64,000 bases of DNA from NCBI GenBank assembly GCA_011052985.1, contig DRHY01000178.1, positions 21,772 to 85,771 on the forward strand, written 5' to 3'. The position numbers and the translations under genes are program-made. Shown here one piece after another: positions 2,457 to 58,640 of this stretch; position 1 is the stretch's first letter, and each line of letters opens with the position of its first letter. This DNA is from Methylophaga thalassica (GTDB taxonomy: Bacteria; Pseudomonadota; Gammaproteobacteria; Nitrosococcales; Methylophagaceae). The notes below the pieces were generated by a model, which saw nothing but the letters and a program-made list of their open reading frames with translations, made no database searches and was not told the DNA's origin.

Positions 2457-2701
2457 TTGAATGCCAATAACTAAAGCGATATGATTCAATCTTCTTTGTA
2501 ACTATAGAATTTAGTTACAGGAAGTGCCACAACCACTTCATGTTGTGCTCATATGTAACTGCTTATAGACTGGTTACGATGTTAATACCCATACTTCTAC
2601 GGATGTATGGAAGCATCAACCCATAAGGGGATTTATCTCTCCTTATGGGGGATAGATCTATCTCCATGGGTTGTTTTAATCAACTTTGAGGAGAAAGAAA
2701 G
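2457..2701 (+). promoter_or_regulatory. structured leader copy 1 with promoter
   Basis: A promoter TTGAAT (2457-2462), 17-bp spacer, TATGAT (2480-2485) is followed by TCTTTGTAACT, the same start region as copies 3 and 10. Hairpins follow: TGTAACT/AGTTACA, CACAAC/GTTGTG (around 2528-2547), GTAAC/GTTAC and CCATAC/GTATGG. The 3' module has CCCATAAGG (2620-2628) pairing with CCTTATGGG (2641-2649), GGGGATAG pairing with CTATCTCC, and CTCC able to pair with the Shine-Dalgarno GAGGAG at 2688-2693. CAACCCAT (2617-2624) can also pair with ATGGGTTG (2666-2673), so the folds are mutually exclusive. Confidence 0.7.
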
Positions 2702-3127
2702 ATGCAAGATATCATTCCCACATTAGCCACTACTGCTTTTCTTGTTTTTTGTTACGACCAAAAAGTCATTGCTTCACTGCAGCGCCAAGGAAAATACGAT
2801 CCTGATACACATCAAACGGTACTATCAAGGTTGTTTTTATCACCAGTAAAATTGTTGTTATCACTTCTTTTACTACGCTTAAATCCAAATAGTGAGGAGA
2901 GCACAACTTGGAAGCCAGAAGGTGATTTGAGTTTGTTTCAATATGACACAACAGTATGCCTGGACAGTAAAGGAATGAAGACGCGTTTATCCTATTTTTT
3001 TGATGATAACCAGCACGCTTGGTACATGATAGAAAATATTAACAATAAAGGCGTTACGGTTAAGGCACCCCGGTTTGAACCTGCTACAGTATCGTTCGAT
3101 GCTAAAAAGCTTCAGTACGTGTTGTAG
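2702..3127 (+). CDS. leader-controlled protein of unknown function
   Basis: This 141-residue protein has an N-terminal hydrophobic stretch (residues ~5-18), a second one (~48-60), then a soluble C-terminal part with the signature WYMIENINNKG. A decayed paralogue of that C-terminal part lies at about 10540-10697 (WYLDISNKG), so this is a family within the element. The start has TTGAGGAGA upstream. It is transcribed from structured leader copy 1 and is followed by a strong terminator, so it is a one-gene unit. Function unknown. Confidence 0.7.
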   Translation: MQDIIPTLATTAFLVFCYDQKVIASLQRQGKYDPDTHQTVLSRLFLSPVKLLLSLLLLRLNPNSEESTTWKPEGDLSLFQYDTTVCLDSKGMKTRLSYFFDDNQHAWYMIENINNKGVTVKAPRFEPATVSFDAKKLQYVL

Positions 3128-3134
3128 ACATGCC

Positions 3135-3165
3135 AGCCCCATTCAGAAATGAGTGGGGCTTTTCC
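3135..3165 (+). terminator. Rho-independent terminator
   Basis: GCCCCATTC, a loop agaaat, then GAGTGGGGC and TTTTCC lie 8 bp after the stop of the preceding gene. The stem is 9 bp and G/C rich. Confidence 0.8.
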
Positions 3166-3200
3166 TTTGATGATACCTTTATCCCTTATTCAAGCTATCT

Positions 3201-3286
3201 AACCGGCATTGACCAATATCCGGTTATTCCTACACATTTATTGCTTAAACATCTAAATTTGCCGGACTTACACCCCGGAGACAAAG
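3201..3286 (+). promoter_or_regulatory. second-type leader hairpin, copy 1 (AACCGG...CCGGTT)
   Basis: AACCGGCATT at 3201 and the matching TCCGGTTATTC ending at 3229 form a hairpin that is nearly base-for-base repeated at 50883-50911, 71 bp before the AcaB-like gene. Here it is 57 bp before the TraI_2-like gene. Only the loop differs (tgac against aaag). The rest of the interval carries the Shine-Dalgarno CGGAGAC. Sharing between two transfer-related genes suggests a common regulator or RNA control. Confidence 0.5.
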
Positions 3287-4507
3287 ATGTTTGGTCGACG
3301 AAAAAAAAACCCACCTGCATCATCCGCAATTCCATCTGACGGAATACCATTTCTCACTGCAAGCGATCTGCTCAGTCCTCATGATCGACTCATTAAAAAA
3401 ATAAGAAATGACGCCGGTTGTACGCGAGAATACTTTGATAATTATTACTTACCAGCTATAGAGCGCCTTGCTGAGATGTTGCAATTGAGACCGTTTGGGC
3501 ATGAAGGAGAGTATGCAAAGAAAGGCGGTGCCATTGAAGTTGCGATTAAGCGTGTAGCACTCACGCTAAAACTCAGACTAGGAACATTGCTTCCCCTTAA
3601 ATGTAAACCAGAGGAAATATCGCATAGGGGAGAATGTTGGACCTATGGACTATTCATTACCGCTCTACTGAGAGATTTTGGCGGTCAAATGCTTGGAGTA
3701 AAGATAATAGGATTTACTAAAGCAGATAAGGCCGCTGGTGAATGGATTTGTTGGAGACATCCTATCGGTGAATATCATCATTACAGAATGAAGAAAGAAG
3801 AGGGAATAACTAGGTCACTCTCCTATACAACTACTGCTCTACATATTCGAGATATTGTACCGATTCACGGTATTGAGTGGATTTACAGTGATTTAGAGCT
3901 TATGGACTGTATGCTAGATATACTCACCGGCGCACGAAAGATTCAAGATAACCCTCTATATTCCATTATTGTAAGGGCAACATCGACACTTAGAGATGAA
4001 ATCACATTTGAAGCAGCAATGAATACTCTTGAAGAAGGAACACAGAATAACGAACCTCAAAGTTCTACTGATGAGCTCATTGATAAGGAAACTGGTGAAA
4101 TATCGATAGCAAGTGCAAAAATAGATATGCGGCATACTGGTATTGATACACCTACAACTATTACCCCCTCAAGTGGCCAGGTAGAACCATTACCTTCAAA
4201 TGATATCCCACCTGAAATGGATGACCCACCTCAAAGCATTGAAGACTACCCACCTGAACCAGAAGATGAGGTAACTCCTCAGAACTTTGTTGCAAGACTC
4301 AAAATTGATATGCAAAAAAAACGTATTACTCCTGAATACGCAAAATCTGAAGGTAATAATATTAAAGTTAAATATCCGAGTACATTCCGGAGTTATACCG
4401 ATAGTCCATCTGAGCTACTTAATGATCTGAGACTCCTTGGACAGGTTATTGAGGAAGGTGCTGTGAAAGGAATAACCTCTGACCGCATAATTATACTTAA
4501 AGGTTAA
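3287..4507 (+). CDS. MobH/TraI_2-like relaxase-family protein with altered HD motif
   Basis: The 406-residue protein has the TraI_2 layout: YLPAIERLAEMLQLRP (residues 54-69), then the position where MobH relaxases carry HH..GGLL.H.LEVA, here HEGEYAKKGGAIEVA (72-86), then LLRDFGG (127-133) where LLHDIGK is usual. The C-terminal part (residues ~325-406: FVARLKIDM, then YPSTFRSY) resembles the TraI_2_C domain. A Pro/acid-rich linker (residues ~275-320) joins them. In MobH relaxases the HD-type histidines bind metal for nicking; several are missing here, so this could be a non-catalytic partner or a divergent relaxase. It is also shorter than usual MobH proteins. The start has GGAGACAAAG upstream. 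Confidence 0.55.
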   Translation: MFGRRKKNPPASSAIPSDGIPFLTASDLLSPHDRLIKKIRNDAGCTREYFDNYYLPAIERLAEMLQLRPFGHEGEYAKKGGAIEVAIKRVALTLKLRLGTLLPLKCKPEEISHRGECWTYGLFITALLRDFGGQMLGVKIIGFTKADKAAGEWICWRHPIGEYHHYRMKKEEGITRSLSYTTTALHIRDIVPIHGIEWIYSDLELMDCMLDILTGARKIQDNPLYSIIVRATSTLRDEITFEAAMNTLEEGTQNNEPQSSTDELIDKETGEISIASAKIDMRHTGIDTPTTITPSSGQVEPLPSNDIPPEMDDPPQSIEDYPPEPEDEVTPQNFVARLKIDMQKKRITPEYAKSEGNNIKVKYPSTFRSYTDSPSELLNDLRLLGQVIEEGAVKGITSDRIIILKG

Positions 4508-4544
4508 ATTGCCAGGATAAATAAACAAAGGTAAGGTTATTTTT

Positions 4545-4732
4545 ATAAGTTCTGCGTACTTGATTTTTCAAGTACCTGAAGTCTCACAGCTACTTTATGC
4601 TGTGCTATAAAATACTGACTAAGGTTAGTATTTAGAATATGTCGCTGCCTCTGATGAAGCAGTAAACCTCAACCCTGAAGGGAGAATGTCTTCCTTCGGG
4701 GGTGTTCTCCCTTTTTTTCATGGAGAATATAT
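4545..4732 (+). promoter_or_regulatory. structured leader copy 2
   Basis: Hairpins in order: GTACTTG/CAAGTAC (around 4555), CACAGC/GCTGTG (around 4586), ATACTGAC/GTTAGTAT, CTGC/GCAG, then the 3' module. CCCTGAAGG (4673-4681) pairs with CCTTCGGGG; alternatively GGGAGAA (4680-4686) pairs with TTCTCCC (4705-4711), followed by seven T, a textbook terminator. TTCTCC can also pair with the Shine-Dalgarno GGAGAA at 4722-4727. One block therefore serves terminator and ribosome-site masking. Confidence 0.7.
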
Positions 4733-4918
4733 ATGAGGCTAAACTACAAAGATATGAAGGAAGATGTAAGGAAAATGGCAATCGCTCTCATGATTGCTGG
4801 ACTTGCAGGATATATCCTTGAAAGTGTTGGTCTAATTAATACGTCTATAATAGTAGCTATTGGACTAACCCTTTGGATCTTTGGGTTAGTTGAACGTGAT
4901 GCTATGGAGGAAGAGTGA
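4733..4918 (+). CDS. 61-residue two-helix membrane protein
   Basis: A short basic N-terminus is followed by two hydrophobic helices (residues ~14-34 and 37-53) and an acidic tail. It is read from structured leader copy 2 with Shine-Dalgarno TGGAGAA seven bases upstream. Its stop TGA overlaps the ATG of the next small gene (TGATG), indicating translational coupling. No family was recognised. Confidence 0.6.
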   Translation: MRLNYKDMKEDVRKMAIALMIAGLAGYILESVGLINTSIIVAIGLTLWIFGLVERDAMEEE

Positions 4919-5025
4919 TGGAAATTGCAGCATTAATAGGTGTATTAGTACTTGGTGTTTATGCGGTAGCAAGCTACCAAGAACATCATTATTCCAAAAA
5001 ACATAAAAAACACAAAAAGAACTAA
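4918..5025 (+). CDS. 35-residue single-helix membrane peptide
   Basis: The ATG overlaps the stop of the preceding gene by one base, and GGAGGAAGAG lies just upstream. The product starts MEIAALIGVLVLGVYAVAS, one transmembrane helix, and ends in a very basic His/Lys tail (HHYSKKHKKHKKN). It is a coupled partner of the two-helix protein and ends 30 bp before a strong terminator. Function unknown; the basic tail might touch phospholipid headgroups or nucleic acid (inference). Confidence 0.5.
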   Translation: MEIAALIGVLVLGVYAVASYQEHHYSKKHKKHKKN

Positions 5026-5038
5026 CACAAGAGATTAC

Positions 5039-5048
5039 TTCCACGGAA
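5039..5048. repeat. TTCCACGGAA palindrome, copy downstream of the parM operon
   Basis: A 10-bp inverted repeat identical, in reverse complement, to the copy at 6500-6509. It sits just beyond the terminator that closes the partition operon. Candidate centromere or operator site. Confidence 0.4.
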
Positions 5049-5055
5049 ATAATCA

Positions 5056-5092
5056 AAAGCCCCTGTCATTCAACATGTCAGGGGCTTTTTTT
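5056..5092. terminator. bidirectional Rho-independent terminator
   Basis: AAAAGCCCCTG and CAGGGGCTTTTTTT form a strong stem with T-rich sequence on the plus side and A-rich on the other. It lies between the convergent small-membrane operon and the parM operon. Confidence 0.8.
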
Positions 5093-5124
5093 ATGAAATA
5101 AAAAAATCAGAAAGCTAGCCCGGA

Positions 5125-19307: not shown

Positions 19308-19955
19308 ATGAAATGTTATGCCAAATGGGAAGAAGACGACAATGCTAAGATTTTCTTTCGAGATCAAACAATCTTACAGTTTGGTAATAGTTGGGATTTA
19401 ATTGCTAACTTAATTCTGCTCAATCCTGGCAGTGCATCACCCGTAAATAACGAATCGAAGACTGACTACTTACGCTCCCAAGAACTGCCATTCTTCATAG
19501 AACCTAAACAACACGAGATGTATGTTGAATTCAAACTCGACCCTTTAATGCGTAACATTCTAAATCTGTTCTCATCTCATTATCATGGCGGAACAATCAA
19601 GATATATAACTTGTTTAACCTTAAAAATCAGGACTCGACAAAAGCCATAGAAGACTTTCAACAGAATTTAATGCATCCCAAGATGTTTACAGCCGATTCA
19701 GACATTCTTTATTGTGCATCGCCGGTCATTGTTGCTTCGGGTACAAAAGCAAAATCTCAAGAGCTGCTTATTCAGCTAATCAGACATATCAGGTTGGCAT
19801 CAAGTGAAAAGCTATTTGCCCTGGAACAAAAAAACGAGAAATTATTTCACATAAAAAAAGCCGAAGTGAATGCATCAGGATATGTAGATAGCTACCATCC
19901 ATCATTCACGTTCAAATATGGAAATAAAACTGAATTAGGTGAACTACCTATCTAA
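19308..19955 (+). CDS. hypothetical protein, DUF1643-like
   Basis: 215 residues. LILLNPGSASP near residue 35 recalls the LLNPS.A start of DUF1643 proteins, followed by a segment for a folded alpha/beta domain (YNLFNLKNQDS, then VIVASGTKAKSQELL). Function of that family is unknown. No strong Shine-Dalgarno is seen; TAGCAG precedes the ATG. The match to DUF1643 is partial. Confidence 0.45.
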   Translation: MKCYAKWEEDDNAKIFFRDQTILQFGNSWDLIANLILLNPGSASPVNNESKTDYLRSQELPFFIEPKQHEMYVEFKLDPLMRNILNLFSSHYHGGTIKIYNLFNLKNQDSTKAIEDFQQNLMHPKMFTADSDILYCASPVIVASGTKAKSQELLIQLIRHIRLASSEKLFALEQKNEKLFHIKKAEVNASGYVDSYHPSFTFKYGNKTELGELPI

Positions 19956-19970
19956 ACTAATGTGCGACGT

Positions 19971-20151
19971 TTGACACTTACTACCGCATAAGATAAATTC
20001 AAACTATCTTTGCAACTCAGTTGCATTGAAAGTTCTGCCACACTTTTAAGCTGGCACTCATTATCAAAGCTGTAAAATGCTTTGCCTACGAACCCAAGGG
20101 GTATGCTACCCCTTCGGGGACGGCTGCCCCTTTTTCTTATGGAGAATTTCC
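19971..20151 (+). promoter_or_regulatory. structured leader copy 3 with promoter
   Basis: TTGACA (19971-19976), 17 bp, TAAATT (19994-19999), then ATCTTTGCAACT as in copies 1 and 10. Hairpins: GCAAC/GTTGC, GCCA/TGGC (with ACACTTTTAAGC loop), CAAAGC/GCTTTG. The 3' module has CCCAAGGGG pairing with CCCCTTCGGG, or GGGG with CCCC followed by five T (terminator form). The Shine-Dalgarno ATGGAGAA is 7 bases before the ATG. Confidence 0.7.
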
Positions 20152-20616
20152 ATGATTAAAGAAGAAGTGGTGAACAGCCAAGATTCATTGAACCTTAAAG
20201 ATGTACTCAATTTTTATGCTGATATTGGTAGATATCAATTTTTGGCAAAAGTTGAATGTGTTTCATGTGATTTCGAAGAAGCAGTTTCTTACTACGAATT
20301 AGCCGTGGGTCGCGTGTATAACTTTACTTATGATGCGATAAGATCTGGCTCTTCCTGGTGTGAATCTGTTTTCCTTCAGCAATTTCCAGAGTTCAAAGAC
20401 GCAGTATCTGATGCAACTCTAGCAGCAGAAATGCATTTACTTCATGATCCACAAGCTAAAGGTATCGTTACCGTTTACTGTCCTCGTGGCTGTAATCAGA
20501 CCACAGTGTCAGCATCTGATCCATGGGATGAGTGTGCAGCATGTGGTCAAGTAATGCATCCTGACTCTGAAGATGAGTACATGTCTTCTCTAGTCCGTGC
20601 TGGACAAGTTCAATAG
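20152..20616 (+). CDS. leader-controlled zinc-ribbon protein, paralogue of 54983-55282
   Basis: The ATG at 20152 follows the leader's GGAGAA; the frame is open upstream through the leader but that part is regulatory. The 154-residue product has an N-terminal domain (LKDVLNFYADIGRYQF) similar to FSDVINFYLDLGN in the protein at 54983, and a C-terminal part with CPRGC and CAACG, a likely zinc ribbon absent from the paralogue. Function unknown. Both paralogues follow the same RNA leader class. Confidence 0.65.
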   Translation: MIKEEVVNSQDSLNLKDVLNFYADIGRYQFLAKVECVSCDFEEAVSYYELAVGRVYNFTYDAIRSGSSWCESVFLQQFPEFKDAVSDATLAAEMHLLHDPQAKGIVTVYCPRGCNQTTVSASDPWDECAACGQVMHPDSEDEYMSSLVRAGQVQ

Positions 20617-20624
20617 AAAAACAG

Positions 20625-20720
20625 TTCTCCCAATACGTTGGGACGACAAAGCATCAACACCCTACAGGGGATTACTCCCTCTGTATGGGAGTGGTCTCCT
20701 AAAAACTGGAGACAATCACG
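20625..20720 (+). promoter_or_regulatory. structured leader copy 4 (short form)
   Basis: It has one hairpin CCCAA/TTGGG (20628-20642) with loop TACG, then CCCTACAGGGG pairing with CCCTCTGTATGGG, then GTCTCC (20694-20699), which is perfectly complementary to the Shine-Dalgarno GGAGAC (20708-20713). It lies directly after the upstream gene, so it acts inside an operon. Confidence 0.65.
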
Positions 20721-20930
20721 ATGAAAAAATATCCATCAAGAAAAATTCACCAAAGAGACTTTCGCCCAGGAGGTAAGTTACACAATCTTCAAGACTGGTT
20801 CTGTACAGGCTGTCAGGTAAATCACTCGGGTTATAGAGAAAGTGTTAAAAGACCAGATGGACTGTACTGCCATGTATCTTTCTATGAGAAATATAAGTCA
20901 GAACAGCTAAGAGCAAATCAACAAGGTTGA
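20721..20930 (+). CDS. leader-controlled small Cys-containing protein
   Basis: 69 residues, very basic. It contains WFCTGCQVNHSGYRES and a later GLYCHVSFYEKY, so CxxC plus one Cys and His residues could form a small zinc knuckle. Shine-Dalgarno TGGAGA is eight bases upstream, inside leader copy 4. Function unknown; nucleic-acid binding is plausible. Confidence 0.55.
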   Translation: MKKYPSRKIHQRDFRPGGKLHNLQDWFCTGCQVNHSGYRESVKRPDGLYCHVSFYEKYKSEQLRANQQG

Positions 20931-20939
20931 TATGCAATT

Positions 20940-21154
20940 GAATACCTTCTCCACAGAGAGGGTATTCCAAAGTAATTTGAAGAGATTATTTTGGAATAAC
21001 GATTCTTGGTGACTTTGTTGCCATGAAAAGTAATCCGGACTTATCAAAACCGGACTCAATGTTCATTCAGTACGCTGAATGATGATGAAAACCCAAGGGG
21101 TGTTACCTATTCCCTTGGGGGTAGCTGGCATCCCTTTTTTTATGGAGAAAGGAA
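20940..21154 (+). promoter_or_regulatory. structured leader copy 5
   Basis: Hairpins: GAATACC/GGTATTC, CCAAA/TTTGG, CCGG...CCGG with the loop ACTTATCAAAA also seen in copy 12, and CATTCAG-TACG-CTGAATG (21064-21081). The 3' module has CCCAAGGG pairing with CCCTTGGG, or GGG with CCC followed by seven T. The Shine-Dalgarno is TGGAGAAAGG. Confidence 0.7.
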
Positions 21155-21355
21155 ATGCAAAAACAGTTACTCAAAGACTTGATTGATTGGATAGAAAAAT
21201 CCAGCCTTGAAGACTTAGCCCTAAGAAGGCTAAAGCTAGAAGAATTAATTGGCAACACAATGGGTACCGAAGTGCAATCTGACTTAAAACTGGCTATTCG
21301 CCTGATTGATGAGGAAGTCGTGACTCGGGCCTGTTTACTACCGAAGTCAGCTTAG
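21155..21355 (+). CDS. leader-controlled 66-residue helical protein
   Basis: The protein is almost wholly helical (LKDLIDWIEKSSLEDLALRR, then AIRLIDEEVVTRACL). Its C-terminal part shares spaced residues with the equally long product at 58641-58838 (ED..., T..G..., AI..I.EE...RA), and both are followed by a convergent, overlapping small gene. Function unknown. Confidence 0.55.
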   Translation: MQKQLLKDLIDWIEKSSLEDLALRRLKLEELIGNTMGTEVQSDLKLAIRLIDEEVVTRACLLPKSA

Positions 21356-21491
21356 CTCGACTATTAATTCTTTTAACAATTTCGGCAGCCTTTTCATCAT
21401 CGTTTTCAAGCACGATGGCACGAATTAAGGCCTCTGAAAGTGGTTGTTCAGTATTTTGATGAACAAGCTTTAGTTCTGTGTGTTTTTTCAT
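21294..21491 (-). CDS. small convergent gene overlapping the previous one
   Basis: 65 residues starting at the ATG at 21491 (MKKHTELKLVHQ). The frame extends further upstream but then overlaps the start of the next gene. It has a helical centre (ALIRAIVLENDDEKAAEIVK) that resembles EILKALLVDKDRDTAFQIAE of the product at 58831-59022. Its 3' end overlaps the plus-strand gene by 62 bp. No good Shine-Dalgarno was found, so confidence is limited. Confidence 0.4.
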   Translation of the reverse strand: MKKHTELKLVHQNTEQPLSEALIRAIVLENDDEKAAEIVKRINSRAKLTSVVNRPESRLPHQSGE

Positions 21492-21531
21492 GTGAATGAG
21501 GATAGCACACAATTTATTTAGGAGAAGTACC

Positions 21532-21969
21532 ATGGGAGTTGGAAATTTCACACTAGCAAATGCTGAAACTGTGTATATCGAGGACCTACATGTTCACGGT
21601 TATTACAGCGGAGGTGAGCTAGATCATGATCAAACCAATCTGGATTATGAGAATTTAGAAGAAACATTAGTAAGCCTTTTACCAGATAGCTTTTGTAAGG
21701 TTGAAAACGAAAGCTATGGAGGCGGTAGCATAATTGCTGAGAACAACTTTTATAGCATTGTACTTACTCACTGGGTAGGTTACTACGCATTAAGTGTTGT
21801 GATTAGAGATAACGATGTCCGGTATGACTGGGGCATTAACCCTCTCGCTGCACATCATCATGCAAGAGTTGCTTTACGATTCTTCGACAAAATTCATGAT
21901 ATCTATCCGCTGCGAGTCCCAACTAGTGCATGGACGAGCGATGTGTACCAGAAAACACTGGCAGCGTAA
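21532..21969 (+). CDS. hypothetical protein
   Basis: The ATG at 21532 is preferred because AGGAGAAG lies seven bases upstream; the frame is open to 21496. The 145-residue acidic product has aromatic-rich beta-like stretches (YSIVLTHWVGYYALSVVIRD) and many His. No family was recognised. It sits inside the series of leader-driven small genes but without its own complete leader. Confidence 0.55.
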   Translation: MGVGNFTLANAETVYIEDLHVHGYYSGGELDHDQTNLDYENLEETLVSLLPDSFCKVENESYGGGSIIAENNFYSIVLTHWVGYYALSVVIRDNDVRYDWGINPLAAHHHARVALRFFDKIHDIYPLRVPTSAWTSDVYQKTLAA

Positions 21970-21989
21970 GGACAGGTAATTAATCACAA

Positions 21990-22080
21990 ATATATCTGGA
22001 CTATTGACCAGATATTTACTCACCCCCTGGGAGGTATTTCACTCCCGCATAGGGGGTGGAGTACTTCTCGCATCAGGAGA
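21990..22080 (+). promoter_or_regulatory. structured leader copy 6
   Basis: A hairpin ATATCTGG/CCAGATAT (around 21991-22015) is followed by CACCCCCTGGGAG pairing with CTCCCGCATAGGGGGTG, then TTCTC complementary to the Shine-Dalgarno GGAGAA (22076-22081). The same order of blocks is seen in the other copies. Confidence 0.65.
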
Positions 22081-22551
22081 ATGATGATGAGAAAGAAATT
22101 TCTAGTTGCATATGGATTAAGTGGATGCTGGCCTGGCTACAAAAATGCCTGCATTATTGAGTCATGTGACGAAGCAATAGAACAAGATGCTTTTAATATT
22201 GCTACCGAGCTTTGGCACAATCAGAAGCCAGGTTCCTCTCTAAGTTATATCTGGGAGGAAATAACAACAATAGTGAATGATTGTGTCTTATATCAATCTC
22301 GACTGACCCTTAAAGCGAAAGCCAAAGTTAATCAACTGCCTTATGCGGTTCATAGCATGGGTAAAACATTTTTGGCCAAGCAAATCTATGGACTTAGAAG
22401 TGCCAATGATTTTCTGAAATCCAACAAGGATTATGGAGTTATCCATGCCAATTATGCAGAGGATGTTTATTTGGTTGCAGAAAATGAGTCACCAGGCATC
22501 AATGAGGTAGAACTTTCTTCCACGCTGATTGCAGGCCACGTTACGTTATAG
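22081..22551 (+). CDS. leader-controlled hypothetical protein
   Basis: 156 residues. Three ATGs in a row follow the leader; the third (22087) has the best distance to GGAGA. The protein starts with a beta-like KKFLVAYGLSGCWPGYKNAC, which may be a folded core, and is otherwise alpha/beta without membrane parts. No family was recognised. It is followed 11 bp later by a small gene with a consensus ribosome site. Confidence 0.55.
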   Translation: MMMRKKFLVAYGLSGCWPGYKNACIIESCDEAIEQDAFNIATELWHNQKPGSSLSYIWEEITTIVNDCVLYQSRLTLKAKAKVNQLPYAVHSMGKTFLAKQIYGLRSANDFLKSNKDYGVIHANYAEDVYLVAENESPGINEVELSSTLIAGHVTL

Positions 22552-22562
22552 GAGGTTGTCAG

Positions 22563-22718
22563 ATGTTTATTTATGCATTACTTCAGACGACTTCCATGGA
22601 TAACACGGTCACTGAGCAAATATTCGTAGAAGAGAAAGACTTTGATGACGCATATTGGTCAGCAATGAAAGATTCAAACATAAAATTAGTCACAGTCAAT
22701 CCGCAAGCGAGCGACTGA
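22563..22718 (+). CDS. 51-residue acidic protein
   Basis: ATAGGAGGTTGTCAG gives a consensus Shine-Dalgarno 7 bases before the ATG. The product starts MFIYALLQTTSMDN and has an acidic centre (FVEEKDFDDAYW). It is the second gene of the unit begun at 22081. Function unknown. Confidence 0.5.
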   Translation: MFIYALLQTTSMDNTVTEQIFVEEKDFDDAYWSAMKDSNIKLVTVNPQASD

Positions 22719-22720
22719 TA

Positions 22721-22790
22721 AATCTATCCCAAGGGGAGCTGGCCTCCCCAAAAGGGAGACCAGTTTCTCTACTAAATTGGAGAAACAAAG
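22721..22790 (+). promoter_or_regulatory. structured leader copy 7 (short form)
   Basis: CCCAAGGGGAG and CTCCCC pair first; then GTTTCTC (22761-22767) is a perfect match for the Shine-Dalgarno GAGAAAC (22781-22787). No upstream promoter hairpins are present, so this copy acts within an operon as in copy 4. Confidence 0.6.
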
Positions 22791-23069
22791 ATGGAAACAT
22801 ACAGCGTTCTAGCATTAAGTACTGGCCATATTGAAGAATCTGATAATGTTGCATTAAAAGCAGCTGCGTATCAGACAAATATGGTAATGGTTCGAGATTC
22901 TGGCTATTTCATTAAGCTTTACCAAGATGATAAAACTAGAAATATCAGACCAGGCTACAGTTCTTCACTACAAAAACTTATTGAGTTTGCTCTCGATAAA
23001 GGATTTGGGATGATCGAACTGGACAGTGCTGCAGATACGTTAGAAGAGTTTATTCTGCACGACTGGTAA
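22791..23069 (+). CDS. leader-controlled protein, DUF5983-like
   Basis: 92 residues. The start YSVLALSTGHIEESDNVAL recalls the STaH(L/I)...D..L opening of DUF5983 proteins of plasmids and genomic islands, and RDSGYFIKLY matches their next conserved strand. That family has no known function. Leader copy 7 provides a TTGGAGAAAC ribosome site. A CCCCCC/GGGGGG hairpin follows the stop. Confidence 0.5.
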   Translation: METYSVLALSTGHIEESDNVALKAAAYQTNMVMVRDSGYFIKLYQDDKTRNIRPGYSSSLQKLIEFALDKGFGMIELDSAADTLEEFILHDW

Positions 23070-23077
23070 ACATTGAT

Positions 23078-23094
23078 CCCCCCATTACGGGGGG
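23078..23094. repeat. CCCCCC-GGGGGG hairpin after a leader-driven unit
   Basis: A six-base G/C stem with loop attac lies eight bases after the stop. There is no T run. An analogous hairpin follows the last gene of the 54-56 kb set at 55974. It may protect the transcript end. Confidence 0.45.
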
Positions 23095-23209
23095 TATCTC
23101 AAAGCAGTTTGTTCACAGATTTTTTTGAGATGTCTATTTCGCTCCAATAAAAAATGTGCTTAATTTTATTAAAATAATTGAAATAATAGATATACAGCGC
23201 CCTAATGAC

Positions 23210-24322
23210 CTAGCCTAAAGTCCTCCATTCAGATGCTGTTTTTAAGATCTTTAAACTGTTGATCATACAAGGAACAGTGTCACTAATCTTACCCTCAATA
23301 CAATCTAAAATTAATAATTGGAATGCTGCCACTGCTGCTTGAAAGTTTGCTGTAGCTAAGCCTACAAACGTAGCTTTTATGACTGCATCCTCGAAGCATG
23401 AAAGAGCAACTTTCTCCATAGTGGTATTTATAGGATTAAACCCTGTAAAAGCCCATAAAGCACGATTACAATCACGTACGCATAACTGATAAACAGTAAT
23501 TGTTATGGTAAAACAGCCACTTCTAACTCTTTCTCGTTTCGAAACCATTTTAAATTCTGGATACGTAAACAAGTCAGCAACTTTTCTCTGGTCTTTATTT
23601 ATAAGTAAGCAGTCATTGTCACGAGCAATATCTTCAAGTTCACGCTCTAGAACATCTCCAGGATTCTCTGGATCTGATACGACCACTGAATCATCATCTA
23701 CTTCAGGGAGACCAGCTTGCCACTCATCTCGCATACTTATAATTTTATAATCACTTTCCAAATAAGCTTGTTCTAGACTTTGCCAAGCTATCAAATGTTC
23801 ATTGATATGCTGCTGACGGTACAATGTAATGTAAAGCTCAACCTTATAATGACTACTAGGAACGCCTAAGCTAGGGCCAATATCATTTGGATCAATGCCG
23901 GAGTCAAGGTCAAAATTATAAAACTGCTCTGAAATTTGCGTTTTCTCTTCACCTGATAGATCATTTTTAATCCATAGACGAGCATAAATATCACAAGTGC
24001 ATGTAAAAGTGACTGGAATAATACAAATACCTTGAGTCATCAAATGAGAGGTATTTCTATCGAATAAACCATAGTGTCTAACTTTTGTTGCATATAAAAC
24101 TGGATCTTTTGGAGGCGTAGAGTTACCGTTTTCATCTACACGGGGTAATTGTAGGTTTTCTATTACTTTTCTACCAACCCCATCAAGACCATATCCTTCT
24201 TTAGAATATGTATCACCAAGCACTTCTTTTGCTTCATCGAAAGTCTTACGAGAGGTATTAATTAACCACTCATTAATTTCCGGTGTAGAAAAACTTCTCT
24301 GTATATTTTGTTCGATAGACAT
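23210..24322 (-). CDS. hypothetical protein, 370 residues
   Basis: The ATG at 24322 has AAGGAATG upstream; seven more codons are open before it. The product is soluble, with an N-terminal helical part, a mid region (IPVTFTCTCDIYARLWIK), an acidic loop and a C-terminal hydrophobic, Ala-rich segment (FVGLATANFQAAVAAFQLLI). No family was recognised. It is a single minus-strand gene between leader-driven sets. Confidence 0.5.
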   Translation of the reverse strand: MSIEQNIQRSFSTPEINEWLINTSRKTFDEAKEVLGDTYSKEGYGLDGVGRKVIENLQLPRVDENGNSTPPKDPVLYATKVRHYGLFDRNTSHLMTQGICIIPVTFTCTCDIYARLWIKNDLSGEEKTQISEQFYNFDLDSGIDPNDIGPSLGVPSSHYKVELYITLYRQQHINEHLIAWQSLEQAYLESDYKIISMRDEWQAGLPEVDDDSVVVSDPENPGDVLERELEDIARDNDCLLINKDQRKVADLFTYPEFKMVSKRERVRSGCFTITITVYQLCVRDCNRALWAFTGFNPINTTMEKVALSCFEDAVIKATFVGLATANFQAAVAAFQLLILDCIEGKISDTVPCMINSLKILKTASEWRTLG

Positions 24323-24447
24323 AACCATTCCTTGTAAAAACAAATAAAAATACTATTTTTCAATCACCTACAACTTTCACAGTCTCATAATACTGGGCAT
24401 AATACAAATTCAAATAAATTAAACATAAGGTTATCTAAAGGACTAGT

Positions 24448-24702
24448 ATGAAGCTAGAGGTCGAGCACCTAGACGATAAAACGAAGAACTCATTTATTCG
24501 TTACATCTTCACCGATATTGAGAAAGCTAGCCCTAAAGGGACTAGCAAAAAGATAATAGAAGCATGGAAAAGCCAGCCTAAAACTATCAGTCTTCATCAT
24601 ATTAAAAATAATTTAGAAGCCCTAAAGCAATACAACCAGCATGTAGTCTACCAAGCACATAAAAGCGTCCTATCTGCTTCAAAAGTATGCTATGGCTTAT
24701 AA
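24448..24702 (+). CDS. integron cassette gene, unknown function
   Basis: The 84-residue basic, helical protein (RYIFTDIEKASPKGTSKKII) ends in TTATAAC, the first core of an attC site, the usual arrangement of integron gene cassettes. TAAAGGACTAG precedes the ATG. The product is unlike its neighbours. Function unknown; small cassette proteins are often toxin-antitoxin or defence parts, but nothing here shows that. Confidence 0.55.
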   Translation: MKLEVEHLDDKTKNSFIRYIFTDIEKASPKGTSKKIIEAWKSQPKTISLHHIKNNLEALKQYNQHVVYQAHKSVLSASKVCYGL

Positions 24703-24757
24703 CAATCGCATTCAATCCGACGCCCACCACTCCGGTTGCTTTATACGGGCGTTATAG
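24697..24757 (+). other. attC recombination site (integron cassette)
   Basis: The 61-bp site begins TTATAACAATCGCATTC and ends CGGGCGTTATAG. The outer arms TATAAC and GTTATA are complementary, the inner part (AATCCGACGCC, then CCGGTTG) resembles attC sites of aadA and Vibrio cassettes, and it starts within the stop of the cassette gene. No integron integrase gene is in the window, so this looks like a cassette placed alone. Confidence 0.7.
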
Positions 24758-24767
24758 GGGGAACACT

Positions 24768-24869
24768 ATGAATGAAAAAGAAAAACTTCCAATCATAAGG
24801 TTTGAAGTGGAGATTCCAAAAGAACTAAATACTCCAATCAATACAATATCATTCGCTAGCTCGTTATAA
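24768..24869 (+). CDS. 33-residue peptide just after the attC site
   Basis: A short frame (MNEKEKLPIIRFEVEIPK...) begins 10 bases after the attC core with GGGGGAAC upstream and ends TTATAAC, which again resembles an attC outer core. It may be a tiny second cassette or a remnant. Low certainty. Confidence 0.3.
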   Translation: MNEKEKLPIIRFEVEIPKELNTPINTISFASSL

Positions 24870-24916
24870 CTGTCCCTTGTAATTATGTTCACAAAAAAGA
24901 ATAAGATTGAAAACAC

Positions 24917-25639: not shown

Positions 25640-25659
25640 ACTCCATCACAATAGTTCGT

Positions 25660-25837
25660 TTGACAGGAAAAGTGGTGAATAGTAATTTATATCCATCGCT
25701 GTAACTCTGTTACACAACAGGTCTTGTCGCACCACAAAACGACACTCTATATTTAATCAGTAAGCTGATTTAGTTCACCCAAGGGGTATATCTATCCTCC
25801 TTGGGATAAATGTATCCCGTAACTTTAGGAGAGTATT
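25660..25837 (+). promoter_or_regulatory. structured leader copy 8 with promoter
   Basis: TTGACA (25660-25665), 17 bp, TAATTT (25683-25688). Hairpins: TGTAAC/GTTACA, TGTCG/CGACA, and AATCAG-TAAG-CTGATT (25755-25770). The 3' module has CCCAAGG pairing with CCTTGGG, or GGGATA pairing with TATCCC. The Shine-Dalgarno is TTAGGAGAG, nine bases before the ATG. Confidence 0.7.
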
Positions 25838-26236: not shown

Positions 26237-26237
26237 T

Positions 26238-26271
26238 AAAAAAGGCACTACCTTCCGGTGGTGCCTTTTTA
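26238..26271 (+). terminator. Rho-independent terminator
   Basis: AAAAAAGGCACTACC, loop TTCC, GGTGGTGCCTTTTT: a nearly perfect stem with UUCG-like loop and T run, just after the stop. Works on either strand. Confidence 0.85.
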
Positions 26272-26299
26272 GTTTAGAGCTATTACTTAAATATGAATT

Positions 26300-41281: not shown

Positions 41282-41605
41282 ATGAACAAGAAAGTAACGT
41301 ATTCCCCAGAAGTCCGCGAACGCGCCGTTCGCATGGTATTGACCTCAGAGCATGAACATCCTTCAAGGTGGGCGACTTTGGTGTCTATTTCATCTAAAAT
41401 CGGTTGTACGCCTGAGACATTAAGAACATGGGTAAGCAAAATGAAAGTGGATTCAGGTAAGAAACCGGGTGTCCCTTCTGATGCTGCAGCTAAAATAAAA
41501 GATCTTGAGCGAGAGAATCGAGAGCTTAAACAAGCCAATGAGATCCTGAAAAAAGCAGCCGCATTTTTTGCTCAGGCGGAGCTCGACCGCAAACCTCGAA
41601 AATAA
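41282..41605 (+). CDS. IS3-family transposase OrfA
   Basis: The 107-residue protein has a helix-turn-helix (YSPEVRERAVRMVL, SKIGCTPETLRTWV) and a leucine-zipper-like helix (KIKDLERENRELKQANEILK). AAAAAAG at 41549-41555 is the -1 frameshift site expected to join it to OrfB. Confidence 0.9.
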   Translation: MNKKVTYSPEVRERAVRMVLTSEHEHPSRWATLVSISSKIGCTPETLRTWVSKMKVDSGKKPGVPSDAAAKIKDLERENRELKQANEILKKAAAFFAQAELDRKPRK

Positions 41606-41619
41606 TCCAATTCATTGAT

Positions 41620-42498
41620 GTGTATAGAGCGTTGCATGGTGTCGAGCCGATCTGTCGTGTGTTACAGATCGCACCCTCAACGTATTACCGTTGCAAAGTG
41701 CTGGAGGCTGAGCCTGAACGTCGCTGCCAGCGTTACCATCAGGATGAAGCAATAAAACCACAAATCCAGCGTGTCTGGCAGGAGAATCGTCGATGTTATG
41801 GTGTCAGGAAGGTATGGAAGCAGTTACAACGCGAGGGCTTTCATGTGGCTCGTTGTACTGTTGCTCGACTTATGGCCGTATTGGAACTGCAAGGTGTACG
41901 CCGAGGCCGGCGTTGCATTACGACGATTCCTGATGAGAGTGCCGCCAAACCTCTGGACTTGGTCAATCGTGAGTTCACAGCTCAGCGCCCCAATCAATTG
42001 TGGGTTGCCGATATTACTTATGTGGCTACTTGGTCAGGTTTTGTCTATGTAGCCTTTGTGACCGATGTATTTTCACGCAAGATCGTCGGTTGGCGAGTCA
42101 TGAAGTCCATGCGGACACAACTCATTCTTGATGCACTGGAACAAGCTTTATGGGCACGAGGTAAACCTAAAGGCGTTATTCATCATAGTGATCGTGGCAG
42201 TCAGTATGTGTCCATTCGCTATTCCGAGCGACTGTCAGAAGCGGGATTCAGTGCCTCTGTCGGCAGTGTTGGTGATTCTTACGACAACGCGTTGGCAGAA
42301 ACCATCAACGGACTATACAAAACGGAAGTAATCCACAAAGACGGTCCATGGAAAGGACTGGAGCAAGTCGAATTGGCCACGTTGGATTGGGTTGATTGGT
42401 TCAACAATAAACGACTACTCAGTCCTATCGGTGATATTCCACCGGTTGAGTATGAGGAAAATTATTATCGACAATTTGCCGAAAATGCGGCAGCATGA
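41620..42498 (+). CDS. IS3-family transposase OrfB (DDE)
   Basis: The 292-residue catalytic part has WVADITYV (first Asp), HHSDRGSQY (second Asp) and DNALAETINGLYKTE (Glu), the complete DDE triad of the retroviral integrase-like fold, preceded by an HTH_21-type region (RRCYGVRKVWKQL). Its frame is -1 to OrfA and can be made as OrfAB through the A6G slip. It seems intact. Confidence 0.9.
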   Translation: MYRALHGVEPICRVLQIAPSTYYRCKVLEAEPERRCQRYHQDEAIKPQIQRVWQENRRCYGVRKVWKQLQREGFHVARCTVARLMAVLELQGVRRGRRCITTIPDESAAKPLDLVNREFTAQRPNQLWVADITYVATWSGFVYVAFVTDVFSRKIVGWRVMKSMRTQLILDALEQALWARGKPKGVIHHSDRGSQYVSIRYSERLSEAGFSASVGSVGDSYDNALAETINGLYKTEVIHKDGPWKGLEQVELATLDWVDWFNNKRLLSPIGDIPPVEYEENYYRQFAENAAA

Positions 42499-54043: not shown

Positions 54044-54247
54044 TTGACACCTAAAAGGCTGAACTTTACTATCTAGTTATCTTTGTAACTCTAAGTTGCA
54101 ATGAGAGTTATGCCACACTCCAAGCTGGCACTATCTAGAGATTCAGTACGCTGAACCCTCACACCCCCACGGGATATAAATATTCCCGTCGGGGAGACAT
54201 ATATCCCATGGTTTTATTCAACTTAACCTAATTTAGGAGAACTACCT
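54044..54247 (+). promoter_or_regulatory. structured leader copy 9 with promoter
   Basis: TTGACA (54044-54049), 17 bp, TACTAT (54067-54072), then ATCTTTGTAACT. Hairpins: TTGTAAC/GTTGCAA, TGCCA/TGGCA, and TTCAG-TACG-CTGAA (54142-54155). The 3' module has CCCCCACGGG pairing with CCCGTCGGGG, or GGGATATA pairing with TATATCCC across it. The Shine-Dalgarno TTAGGAGAA precedes the ATG. Confidence 0.75.
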
Positions 54248-54610: not shown

Positions 54611-54621
54611 CAAATTGTCCA

Positions 54622-54660
54622 TACGGGGATGATAATCCCCGCTAGGGGATTGTCCCCGTA
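54622..54660. repeat. G/C-block hairpin after a leader-driven gene
   Basis: TACGGGG, ATGATAAT, CCCCG, CTA, GGGG, ATTGT, CCCCGTA: three C/G blocks that can pair in alternative ways, like the leader 3' module but without a following large gene. A degenerate copy or a regulatory 3' end. Confidence 0.45.
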
Positions 54661-54774
54661 AATTATCGTTATGTTTGCTGAACAATGCCCTAATGTGAAC
54701 ACCTTAAAATTATTCCGATAAAGTATGGAATCCTTATTAAGGATAGGAGCCTTACAGGTTACTGTGAGGCGAAA

Positions 54775-54982
54775 TACTCTCTTAATATGAGGGTATTCCA
54801 AAACTTAAACCAGAAAGCTTTGGAATACCGCAATCAAAATAAGACGCTTTTATTTATTTTGAATATTAACCGGGACTCAGAGTTTCGGTTTCGTAGACCC
54901 ATCAGTATTCTGATAGACAAAACAAAGGGATGATCAACTCCCTTGGAGCTCGTCACCCTTATTTTTCATTATTGGAAAAATT
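54775..54982 (+). promoter_or_regulatory. structured leader copy 10
   Basis: The 5' part (GAAATACTC, then GGGTATTCCAAA and TTTGGAATACC) matches the start of copy 5. ATCAG-TATT-CTGAT (54901-54914) corresponds to the TAMG hairpin. AAGGGA pairs with TCCCTT; GGGATGA can pair with TCACCC. The ribosome site is weak (TTGGAAAAATT). Confidence 0.6.
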
Positions 54983-55345: not shown

Positions 55346-55495
55346 GTAGATAGCTAAATAATATCTACATTATGAGTTAGTCGGACTTATAAAACCGACC
55401 TCAACCTACAAACAGTAAGCTGTTTGTTTATTTCAACCCCATAAGGGATCACGCCCCCTTATGGGAGGGGTGTTCTCTAAAGTTAGGAGATCGAC
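55346..55495 (+). promoter_or_regulatory. structured leader copy 11
   Basis: Hairpins: GTAGATA/TATCTAC, GTCGG/CCGAC (loop ACTTATAAAA, like copy 5), CAAACAG-TAAG-CTGTTTG (55409-55426). CCCATAAGGG pairs with CCCTTATGGG; TCTC can mask the Shine-Dalgarno AGGAGA. Very regular copy. Confidence 0.75.
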
Positions 55496-55998: not shown

Positions 55999-56028
55999 AA
56001 TTATTAAGCTTTCGATAAATAGTTACTT

Positions 56029-57129
56029 TTATTTTTTTGTAAGCCGTAATGATTTTTCTTTTACGATTTTCTGTCTAGCATTAGCTGCTTTCATCTCTTT
56101 GATGAATTTCATGGAGGCATGTAACATGAAAACTGCATCAACTATCTTTTTACCATCTTTAATGCTATTCATTTCATATCGCATCAATACACCGCTTTCA
56201 ACTAACTCTTCTACGGCCATTTTCAATGTTTCGATACGACGAGTAACCAATCTGTGATGCATAAGACCTGAATCTCTATCTATTTCAGTAAAGATAATCT
56301 TGTAAGCTGGTGCATCAATACCTGCATTGATAAATCTATCAGCCAACCTTTTAAATAACCATCTTGCTAAAGGTTGTTTCAAACTCATAGCATCAGCGTA
56401 GTTATATTGCCGATAATCGAATTTATTAATTGCTCTGCTTATAAGTGATGAGAACTTTACTGCAGATAGGGCATTACTGTTTGTTCTGTATGAGGCTCTA
56501 TCTTGTAATAGCTTGTCAGAGAGGATATTCGAACTGTAGGCCTGTTTTCCGTTAACAGTTATAGTTAGACGGCAATTTTCCATTATTTCTAACGCTTGCT
56601 TAACTTCCTCATGACTTCTGACTTTACCAAATGCTTTTAACTCTTTCACTATCATGTTGATTGTGAACTTACACCATGACTCATCTCGATCAGAATCATG
56701 GAAACCATGTCTTTGTTGTAAAAATATCTTCCGTAAAATATCTTCTATTAATTCTTCTGACTCTGCAGGGTAAAAGTCTTTTTCTTCTCCACCAACTTCA
56801 ATACGTGCAGGCTTTAACTCCATTTCACATATTTCACCAGCAGGTGTTTGAAATTCTTTTCTAAGAATAGGTAAATTACCGGCTTCATTTCGCATAGAAG
56901 CTTGGATTTGTCTGGATACGCTGTATCGTGGAATTGAATCCCAGAAACTAAGTAGGTTCGATAATTGTTCTGTATCGCCTGAAGGACCAAGCAAAGTAGC
57001 AAACAAATCATAATTTTGATTATTCTGTGGTAAAGAGGGTGCTTTCTCTTGAGTTTCTTGAATGTCGTCTAGGATAGAGCGAGCATTTTTTTTAGCAGCA
57101 CTGTCTTCTTTGAAGTTATTACCTGACAT
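56029..57129 (-). CDS. repA: plasmid replication initiator (RepA-like)
   Basis: 366 residues. The central segment LKQPLARWLFKRLADRFINA resembles the conserved LK.p.AR.L...L..... region of RepA/TrfA-type initiators, and a second winged-helix-like part follows (DRDSGLMHHRLVTRRIETLK, then AVEELVESGVLMRYEM). Such initiators bind iterons and recruit DnaA/helicase. The promoter region to its right holds about 20 iterons and a DnaA box. Family choice between RepA subtypes is not possible without a search. Confidence 0.7.
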   Translation of the reverse strand: MSGNNFKEDSAAKKNARSILDDIQETQEKAPSLPQNNQNYDLFATLLGPSGDTEQLSNLLSFWDSIPRYSVSRQIQASMRNEAGNLPILRKEFQTPAGEICEMELKPARIEVGGEEKDFYPAESEELIEDILRKIFLQQRHGFHDSDRDESWCKFTINMIVKELKAFGKVRSHEEVKQALEIMENCRLTITVNGKQAYSSNILSDKLLQDRASYRTNSNALSAVKFSSLISRAINKFDYRQYNYADAMSLKQPLARWLFKRLADRFINAGIDAPAYKIIFTEIDRDSGLMHHRLVTRRIETLKMAVEELVESGVLMRYEMNSIKDGKKIVDAVFMLHASMKFIKEMKAANARQKIVKEKSLRLTKK

Positions 57130-57300
57130 TCTTGGTTGATACCTTTGTCCTGAAAAACTGTATTACGAGATGATGACATAAAAAGCTGGATACGCAACCC
57201 TTTATCAGATTGAAAAGATCTTTGCTTTTTTTTTAAAGAGGGATAGAGGAGAGGATAGAAGGTAAATACTAAATATTTCAATTAGTTATAAGCCTAAAAA

Positions 57301-58331
57301 TCCTAAGAACCTCGAACACCACTATTTTTAACAACTTTTCAATATCAAATATCCTCAAAACCTTGAAGCTAAATTACAAATTCTCCCAGAAACCTTGAGG
57401 GTGTCTCCTGAGAACCTCGAACATTTTAGTCAAATTATGATGTTTGTATTTAACATAACGTTGTGGATAACTGCTGATATCCTCAAAACCTTGAACAAAA
57501 ATCCTAGAAACCTTGAAGGGTGCTTTGTAAACTCTCCCGAAAACCTCGAATGTCATCTTCTCGAACTCTCCTGAAAACCTCGAACACACGCGCAAACAAA
57601 GGTCTTAAGTAAAAATATAACTCTCCCGAAAACCTTGAACTAATCTCGGTTAAGCATGGAAGATCCAGGGCACTAGTTTTTCTCTATGAACTCTCCTAGA
57701 AACCTTTATGCTAAACGTAAGTCTCCCGAAAACCTCGAACCCTCTAAGGTAGGTTATTCACTATTAAGCCATTATGATGCCCAACTATCCGCAAAACCTC
57801 GAACAAAAGTCTATATATTTCATTGACATACAAAAGTGACGTGATAACTATACTAACTATTCGACAGCGTTGCACGTTAAATCTTATGTTAATCCATCCA
57901 TATTCAGGATCATATTAAGCAAAGGCTCGATATACTCACTCGTATCTTACTTTTTGCACCCCAACTATCCGCAATTCCTCGAATCTAATATTAATTAAAT
58001 CAATAAGATATGAAACTCTCCTGAAAACCTCGACCATTTCCTAATGGAATTGATTAAGCCGATAATTCTTTAATTCTCCGCAAAACCTCGAATCTTCAGG
58101 CAACATTTTCTGGATAAATAATTTCTGCTAATAGCTCAACTATCCGCAAAACCTCGAACTACAATCTATATAAATCAATAACATAGGTAAATGTCCTGGA
58201 AACCTAGAACCTGAAAAATTCCTAACTATCCGCAATACCTAGAACTAAACCATATGATAAACAACAACTTATGAAAATATCCTGAAAACCTCGAAGGGTT
58301 TATAGTATTAACTCTCCCAGAAACCTTGAGC
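57301..58331 (+). repeat. origin of replication: about 20 direct iterons
   Basis: All repeats have one orientation, consensus TCCYRNAAACCTYGAAC (17 bp). First bases: 57301, 57352, 57384, 57406, 57480, 57502, 57535, 57569, 57624, 57694 (weak), 57724, 57788, 57968, 58019, 58077, 58143, 58194, 58229, 58280 and 58315. Two subtypes exist: CTCCYGAAAACC and AACTATCCGCAAAACC. Spacing is irregular, with a long gap at 57805-57967. AT-rich runs and a DnaA box lie inside. This is the expected layout of an iteron-controlled plasmid origin next to repA; it holds no gene. Confidence 0.85.
57462..57470 (-). promoter_or_regulatory. DnaA box
   Basis: TGTGGATAA is the exact complement of the consensus TTATCCACA. 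It lies between iterons 4 and 5, as expected for a host-initiator site at a plasmid origin. Confidence 0.7.
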
Positions 58332-58479
58332 TGGTTATGTAGGTCCTTAGAAGCTGGAAAATTAAACATGTGTTTAAAGAAGTGTGAAGAAGATCACGAC
58401 CTGACTTTGACTTGGTTGTAAGTAAGCGCTATCTTTTATCTATTGATTTTATACCTGCTAATTTCTGATTAGTTTGGTG

Positions 58480-58640
58480 TGAAGTGTTCGTCCAACACAT
58501 CAATTGGACGCTCAAATACTCACCTGTACTCAGGTGATGCCAATTAATTTTAATTATCTGTAAGCAGATGATTTACCCATAGGGGAATACATTCCCTTGT
58601 GGGCATTGTGTTCTCCTTTTTTATCTTTGAGGAGTTCACC
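58480..58640 (+). promoter_or_regulatory. structured leader copy 12
   Basis: Hairpins: CGTCCAA/TTGGACG, TCACCT/AGGTGA and ATCTG-TAAG-CAGAT (58556-58569), where the stem order CTG/CAG is opposite to other copies (compensatory change). CCCATAGGGGAA pairs with TTCCCTTGTGGG; CTCC can pair with the Shine-Dalgarno GGAG (58631-58634). A six-T run follows TTCTCC. Confidence 0.75.

Follow-up and report, generated by a model that had tools for sequence, protein, structure and literature searches.

Structured 5' leaders with two predicted, mutually exclusive folds on a plasmid-like element of Methylophaga and in other Proteobacteria

Introduction

The regulation of conjugative-element genes is usually sought in promoters. 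An RNA-based device of another kind is the erm-type translational attenuator, which has four segments: pairing of 1 with 2 and of 3 with 4 hides the Shine-Dalgarno sequence, and an alternative pairing frees it. A DUF3577 RNA motif, reportedly described by Weinberg et al. in 2017, is said to be named for its position upstream of DUF3577 genes. Here we analyse a family of structured 5' leaders on a 64,000-nucleotide stretch of DNA from Methylophaga thalassica (contig DRHY01000178.1, positions 21,772 to 85,771; hereafter the window), which is part of an 85.8-kb, plasmid-like contig.

The radC motif (RF01754) is entered in Table 1 of Weinberg et al. (2010; PMC2864571) under Proteobacteria, as RNA 'Y', cis-regulatory 'y' and switch '?'. 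For the STAXI motif the same paper describes pseudoknots in two or three tandem copies, located near genes for SSB, topoisomerase, integrase and antirestriction functions. On that description the leaders analysed here resemble STAXI in their pseudoknots and gene surroundings and differ from it in the tandem repetition; no STAXI row appeared in the Rfam results for the loci searched, at the thresholds used. As the DUF3577 RNA motif is said to do, leaders of the class described here stand upstream of DUF3577 genes, and the Rfam results for the DUF3577 leaders searched contained no family named DUF3577 RNA.

A literature search found no paper on the class described below. We find it to be real and widespread, and its two-state design stands out for its clarity. 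As a family it is covered by radC RNA only in part, and as a kind a Shine-Dalgarno switch is already known.

Results

Twelve leaders share a module of mutually exclusive folds

A sequence-only reading had placed twelve leaders in the window, each ending at the base before an ATG and each carrying a common pattern of four blocks, the last being the Shine-Dalgarno sequence. All twelve lie where it placed them, with the block pattern present; each copy is named here by its last base. In our scheme blocks 1 and 2 form a hairpin (P), and block 3 has two possible partners: the end of block 1 (T) and the Shine-Dalgarno sequence (S).

The scheme was examined by an exchange test, in which cognate block pairs are compared with pairs made from blocks swapped between copies. 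Among the twelve window copies, P scored 22.7 for cognate against 17.0 for exchanged pairs and T 21.6 against 16.0, and neither value was reached in 2000 permutations. Pairing of block 2 with block 3 was weakly copy-specific (14.1 vs 12.2, 15/2000), and S was not copy-specific in this set (14.2 vs 13.8, 578/2000). S became copy-specific (0/2000) in a set of 60 nonredundant modules and in leaders chosen solely for their position before DUF3577, RadC or DUF6573 genes (32 nonredundant of 88), where P also gave 0/2000, T 2/2000 and block 2:3 1735/2000. Of the pairings first proposed, that of block 1 with block 2 thus stood; that of block 3 with block 4 failed within the window and held in the wider sets; and the main partner of block 3 is the end of block 1, not block 2. 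The tests therefore yield a scheme in which 1:2 competes with end-of-1:3 and block 3 is also complementary to the Shine-Dalgarno sequence; because these helices share bases, P plus S excludes T.

The leaders are as follows (window coordinates, all on the plus strand; spacers between promoter-like hexamers are 17 nt).
Leader 1: 2457..2701; stand-alone; promoter-like TTGAAT-17-TATGAT at 2457; predicted 5' pseudoknot 2515-2547; P about 2620-2649; T about 2626-2663.
Leader 2: 4509..4732; TTGCCA-17-TAAGGT at 4509; predicted pseudoknot 4571-4604; P 4674-4700; T 4677-4714, then 7 T.
Leader 3: 19971..20151; TTGACA-17-TAAATT at 19971; predicted pseudoknot 20021-20055; P 20093-20118; T 20096-20132, then 5 T.
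Leader 4: 20631..20720; between two genes; platform plus one UACG hairpin; P 20660-20689; T 20666-20700.
Leader 5: 21020..21154; predicted pseudoknot 21020-21053; UACG hairpin 21068; P 21092-21119; T 21095-21136, then 7 T.
Leader 6: 22010..22080 (start approximate); between two genes; T 22028-22070 (19 bp); competing P-like helix about 22017-22063.
Leader 7: 22700..22790 (start approximate); between genes, a DUF5983 gene next; P inner stem 22733-22749; T 22732-22770; S of 9 bp.
Leader 8: 25660..25837; TTGACA-17-TAATTT at 25660; predicted pseudoknot 25710-25743 (only 3 bp); UAAG hairpin 25758; P 25778-25805; T 25783-25818.
Leader 9: 54044..54247; TTGACA-17-TACTAT at 54044; predicted pseudoknot 54098-54129; UACG hairpin 54144; P 54165-54194; T 54167-54211.
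Leader 10: 54880..54982 (start approximate); the weakest copy; P 54925-54944 without the outer CCC; T-like helix 54920-54965; broken U-run TTATTTTT.
Leader 11: 55365..55495; predicted pseudoknot 55365-55398; UAAG hairpin 55413; P 55438-55465; T 55444-55478.
Leader 12: 58407..58640; TTGACT-17-TATCTT at 58407; predicted pseudoknot 58476-58508; flipped UAAG hairpin 58558; P 58576-58603; T 58581-58617, then 6 T.

A three-helix descriptor was built from P, T and S, with the 5' arm of T overlapping that of P and its 3' arm downstream of P. Each window copy was set against 100 dinucleotide shuffles of itself: for 11 of the 12 the real sequence had the best combined score, and copy 55495 exceeded 99 of its 100. 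For 16 copies on two related plasmids, 12 were matched by no shuffle and four by 1, 2, 6 and 19 of 100. A strict scan of both strands, which took ATG or GTG starts with a Shine-Dalgarno-like sequence and an open reading frame (ORF) of at least 35 codons, returned ten places in the window. These are nine of the twelve leaders (4732 twice, via an inner start) and no other site; 22080, 22790 and 54982 were missed, and the reversed window gave no match. The descriptor had been shaped on the very copies that it recovers here. A first regular-expression scan and a first loose descriptor scan (348 matches, many inside GC-rich genes) were unspecific without a CCC/GGG filter.

Two side observations concern module sequence. 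From an in-frame ATG at 20077 the listed ORF runs through the entire module (20077-20151) and on into the gene that begins at 20152, which makes the ORF longer than that gene; this ATG is probably there by chance. Module-like sequence, GGGGATGATAATCCCC...GGGGATTGTCCCC, lies at 54621-54666 directly 3' of a leader-controlled gene, with no gene in the next ~300 nt, and is possibly an orphan or decayed copy.

Covariation and helix energies

Covariation in the stems, claimed from the window copies, was borne out in P over a larger set. In 30 modules, 93.3% of cells were paired against 75.4% when shuffled (0/500), and two-sided changes filled 69 cells against 21.7 (0/500). The 30 hairpins were put in one register by loop trimming and came from 39 kept, all pre-filtered at no more than two mismatches. 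Slid controls paired at 43-64%, the one-column slide reaching 64%. Together with the descriptor scores and the copy-specific P and T, this makes the leaders a genuine family with mutually exclusive folds.

Leaders picked by gene gave smaller differences. P and S together were 89.4% paired against 85.2% in shuffles of 29 RadC leaders (0/500) and 84.4% against 82.1% in DUF3577 leaders (0/500); the latter alignment holds 32 of the 34 unique leaders from 38 loci, L130 and L134 being omitted. T in the RadC leaders was 77.7% paired against 75.1% (3/500). Two-sided changes and further pair types were not all above shuffles in these sets (for example, 265/500 and 322/500 for DUF3577), because the pairs are much conserved. 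RNAalifold applied to the 29 RadC leaders returned P and S unprompted.

Single mismatches in the P helices of the 60 modules comprised 34 G.U, 12 A.C and 46 others; the counts were 61, 47 and 84 in T and 18, 18 and 32 in S. On this pattern the argument for action at the RNA level therefore draws on P and on the placement of the Shine-Dalgarno sequence. Taken as hairpins alone, P and T lie within 4 kcal/mol of each other in eight of the twelve window copies; only such energies were used, constrained energies for P plus S being impossible where helices overlap.

Distribution across genomes

Among annotated plasmids the window has two nearest relatives. One is a 320-kb M. thalassica plasmid, 96% identical over 98% of window 2300-5100; the other, pWTT2411 of M. 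pinxianii, shows 71-77% identity, in pieces.

The leaders are not confined to this element, in which the sequence-only reading had described them, and their placement before genes holds elsewhere. Built from five copies, a covariance model of P (R1) found matches in 13 of 58 relatives, a count that takes in the window's own genome. At E ≤0.01 a broader P model (R2), built from 30 of the 39 modules, matched 42 of the 369 gammaproteobacterial genomes sampled; these belong to 41 of 271 genera, and two of the 42 (G000, G054) had given seeds. In a phylum sample R2 matched 35 of 398 genomes, and one genome outside Gammaproteobacteria (G780) carries six matches within about 8 kb. Since R2 is mostly one GC-rich, nearly palindromic hairpin, single matches may be chance. 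The near-palindromy of P also accounts for the reverse-strand matches of both models, so that single matches need a check of strand and gene. Among the best 30 R2 matches with a locus, 19 have a same-strand ORF with a Shine-Dalgarno sequence 12-36 nt downstream; in a random-position control 506 of 3000 have both within 80 nt.

Of 28 phylum-level loci, 12 satisfy the full descriptor. Close relatives of the DUF3577 protein in named genomes supplied 38 loci (from Alcanivorax, Haliea, Seongchinamella, Porticoccus, Thiogranum and others), and 30 of these hold 62 descriptor starts, a figure that includes some inner-start repeats and a few probably false ones.

Predicted 5' domains

Full copies had been said to share upstream hairpins. 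Eight window copies have a predicted H-type pseudoknot, in which a hairpin loop is complementary to the strand just before the hairpin (GAAGUG with CACUUC, GAGU with ACUC, GUGU with ACAC etc.; only 3 bp in 25837). Cognate pairs scored 12.0 against 9.58 for exchanged ones over these eight (14/20000). Over 24 Methylophaga leaders the test gave 1/20000, and 208/20000 when reduced to 12 different loops; stretches were picked by hand, and the 24 are those of 44 leaders with a recognisable hairpin X, the eight among the twelve window copies included.

DUF3577 leaders of other genera have a covarying loop pseudoknot (GGATTG:CAATCC, GGACCG:CGGTCC, GGGCTG:CAGCCC, GGATC:GATCC). In 18 leaders (14 DUF3577 and four radC, windows picked by hand) the 5'-domain pseudoknot gave 0/20000.

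UAMG-type hairpins occur in six window copies, and 54982 has a variant loop. The flipped stem reported for this hairpin is present in one window copy (CTG/CAG at 58558), with more in M. pinxianii leaders. A contact of the UAMG loop with hairpin X was dropped, as by eye it fits only one or two copies. A further upstream hairpin, GGTATTCC...GGAATACC, which encloses a nested one, is common to several full leaders and suggests a second 5'-domain subtype:
L012, 44955-47688, minus strand; L049, at 8866 and 10909; window, at 21155 and 54983.

Relation to radC RNA

An Rfam search of the window leaders matched no family; chance rows far below cut-offs at other loci (U3, miRNA, DicF, others) were discarded. 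RF01754 matched nothing in the window at its gathering cut-off (40 bits), and a direct search of the genome to which the window belongs stayed empty even with E allowed up to 10. In 27 genomes, 26 with module matches and one without (G152), it passed the cut-off once. In the class sample one of 369 genomes was above the cut-off and two at E 0.01, against 42 of 369 for the P model. At the RadC or DUF3577 leaders of L058, L061, L062 and eight further loci an Rfam radC match was expected and none appeared.

The DUF3577 leaders of L179, L185 and L191 do match radC RNA. A CC..GG-ended hairpin lies directly 3' of 10 of 12 RF01754 matches (11 distinct copies), and the two exceptions represent a single copy that was counted twice, where the Rfam match overruns CCC/GGG sequence. 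Examples include plasmids of Pseudomonas veronii and Stutzerimonas stutzeri, whose loci had been picked for their DUF3577 genes. In one further genus (best radC RNA per genome, n=29), P, T and S stand before a start codon in 12 of 29; a P-like hairpin by itself follows the radC RNA in 12 of 29, against 130 of 580 shuffles. Thus the class is not wholly undescribed, as had been proposed, because the same 3' module stands directly behind radC RNA elsewhere; what holds of that proposal is that the window leaders match no Rfam family.

The two RNAs are alike in preceding DUF3577 and other conjugative-element genes, and in a cis-regulatory position before RadC and related genes (here RadC, DUF3577, ArdC and Antirestrict domains). 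In radC RNA the hairpin loop can pair with a stretch 3' of the hairpin; DUF3577 leaders of other genera show this order too (GGATC:GATCC vs GGATTG:CAATCC), and those leaders have no Rfam match. In the predicted window pseudoknots the loop partner stands before the hairpin instead of after it. The 149-position Rfam model stops before the module in the copies examined. Since radC, DUF3577-type and window leaders differ in their 5' domain, one module is shared by different 5' domains.

The module-less radC RNAs of that genus are at L200, L202, L203, L205-L208, L210-L218 and L220. Many continue with a similar stretch, ..CTGCGGCA..CTGCAGCAACC.., and no start codon was found within 140 nt; those with this sequence represent a different context for radC RNA.

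Genes behind the modules

A restriction to small genes of unknown function, as first described, does not hold. Modules precede genes for a DUF3577/STY4534 ICE replication protein, RadC, DUF6573, DUF3150, CobT/VWA, RecT, a MoxR-type AAA protein, ArdC, an Antirestrict-domain protein and DUF5983, along with many small Pfam-less proteins. Group II intron maturase and glycine-zipper genes also stand behind modules, which may be chance. The company is largely that of genes which help foreign DNA to settle, and it suggests a role in establishment. At L191 6629, on a Stutzerimonas plasmid, the gene behind a platform-only module encodes a DNA cytosine methyltransferase.

Proposed function and alternative explanations

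The leaders are, in our judgement from the pairing patterns, rather probably a bistable module for translation, with P plus S as the OFF state and T as the ON state. Block 3 would act as an anti-Shine-Dalgarno sequence, and the end of block 1, which would mimic the Shine-Dalgarno sequence, as a decoy for it. P would mask the decoy, so that P plus S leaves the Shine-Dalgarno sequence hidden and translation off; formation of T would capture block 3 and likely turn translation on. The sequences show the exclusive complementarity, the covariation and the position before genes; which state is ON, and that switching takes place in the cell, we infer.

As in the erm-type attenuator, P plus S would hide the Shine-Dalgarno sequence and an alternative fold would free it; the alternative here is the end of block 1 with block 3, whereas erm uses 2 with 3. 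With riboswitches the leaders share mutually exclusive folds that hide or expose a Shine-Dalgarno sequence or terminator, a likeness seen here in the complementarity of the sequences.

The predicted 5' pseudoknot is a likely sensor at operon heads, a place that radC RNA would take elsewhere, and modules inside operons would be used alone, without a 5' domain. The genes served (DUF3577, RadC, ArdC, the antirestriction protein, RecT) would make this a control of genes needed on entry into a new cell, and as a first guess the signal may be a factor that the element encodes and a fresh recipient lacks. CsrA was weighed as the input because the M. thalassica plasmid itself bears a csrA gene (locus L007, 37813-37986); none is among the M. 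pinxianii plasmid entries listed in an incomplete PLSDB table, and that plasmid has many leaders.

Several observations count against a translational switch of this design. S is not copy-specific among the window copies. T is weak in the gene-chosen set and in the RadC alignment, where fixed registers penalise it, and its mismatches are hardly biased; those in S are unbiased. Platform-only copies have no obvious sensor, and 17 of the 29 radC RNAs of the further genus have no module. Promoter-like TTG...-17-TA...T sites stand upstream of six of the twelve window copies, but in 19800-26300 such sites are no commoner than in shuffles (16 vs 21.2). Finally, in U-run copies T as a terminator would have the sign opposite to T as ON, and the proposed scheme does not reconcile the two outputs.

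The U-runs bear on the first rival, a transcription attenuator in which T is an intrinsic terminator, P the antiterminator and Shine-Dalgarno pairing secondary. A terminator-like T-run had been reported for the copies at 4.7, 20.1 and 21.1 kb; it is present in all three and is not restricted to them, since 54982 and 58640 also have one. This makes 5 of 12 window copies, or 4 of 12 if the broken run of 54982 is excluded, and a run of at least five T near the end of T occurs in 10 of 14 M. pinxianii copies; the T hairpins of U-run copies reach -8.6 to -26.5 kcal/mol. Only 11 of the 60 modules have such a run, however, and S is copy-specific in sets mostly without it, so we consider attenuation as the main function unlikely. 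Under the bistable translational module, T in the U-run copies may also end transcription as a second layer, possibly locking the gene twice.

The leaders could instead be constitutive insulators or translational couplers, whose hairpins fix a low translation rate or tie a gene to the preceding one with no sensing. The short copies 20720, 22080 and 22790, which lie between same-strand genes with the platform alone or one further hairpin, fit this idea, as do RadC leaders of other genera built in the same way between stop and start codon. A static insulator needs no second, exclusive fold that is copy-specific, as P and T both are, and eight copies have a predicted pseudoknotted 5' domain; we judge this explanation improbable as well. 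A DNA-level element, such as a Frpo/ssi-type single-stranded promoter or recombination site in folded transfer-strand DNA, is very improbable: the gene company (antirestriction, near SSB genes) resembles Frpo leading regions as portrayed in PMC11541004, but the fold extends into the Shine-Dalgarno sequence, P mismatches favour G.U over A.C, and six copies have linear promoter-like sites upstream (a weak point; no search with Frpo sequences was made).

Returning to the translational switch, we offer a broader proposal tentatively. One Shine-Dalgarno switch may be the common output of a large, hitherto unrecognised RNA superfamily in proteobacterial conjugative elements, standing behind radC, DUF3577-type and Methylophaga-plasmid pseudoknotted sensors at operon heads and repeated alone inside operons, so that one signal would set an establishment programme gene by gene. 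If the module is the output part of radC RNA, that RNA gains a testable readout, target genes and relatives where Rfam sees nothing. There would then be an RNA layer controlling antirestriction and replication genes of conjugative elements, and the surprise for specialists would be the breadth of the class and a link that would give radC RNA an output domain.

Other features of the element

The annotation of both relative plasmids lists transfer proteins of the 'integrating conjugative element' type as well as one with a TraI domain, although PLSDB types both plasmids as non-mobilizable. The window itself encodes a TraI_2 protein at 3287-4504. An iteron-like motif, [AG]AA[CT]CT[CT][GT]A, has 17 matches in window 57307-58321 and eight in the rest of the window; the cluster adjoins a minus-strand gene for a 366-aa protein (56029-57129) with no Pfam match, and 57307-58321 is probably a replication origin. 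An ALIL frameshift pseudoknot (RF01497), a mark of IS3-type transposase genes, was returned by the Rfam search at window 41560-41676.

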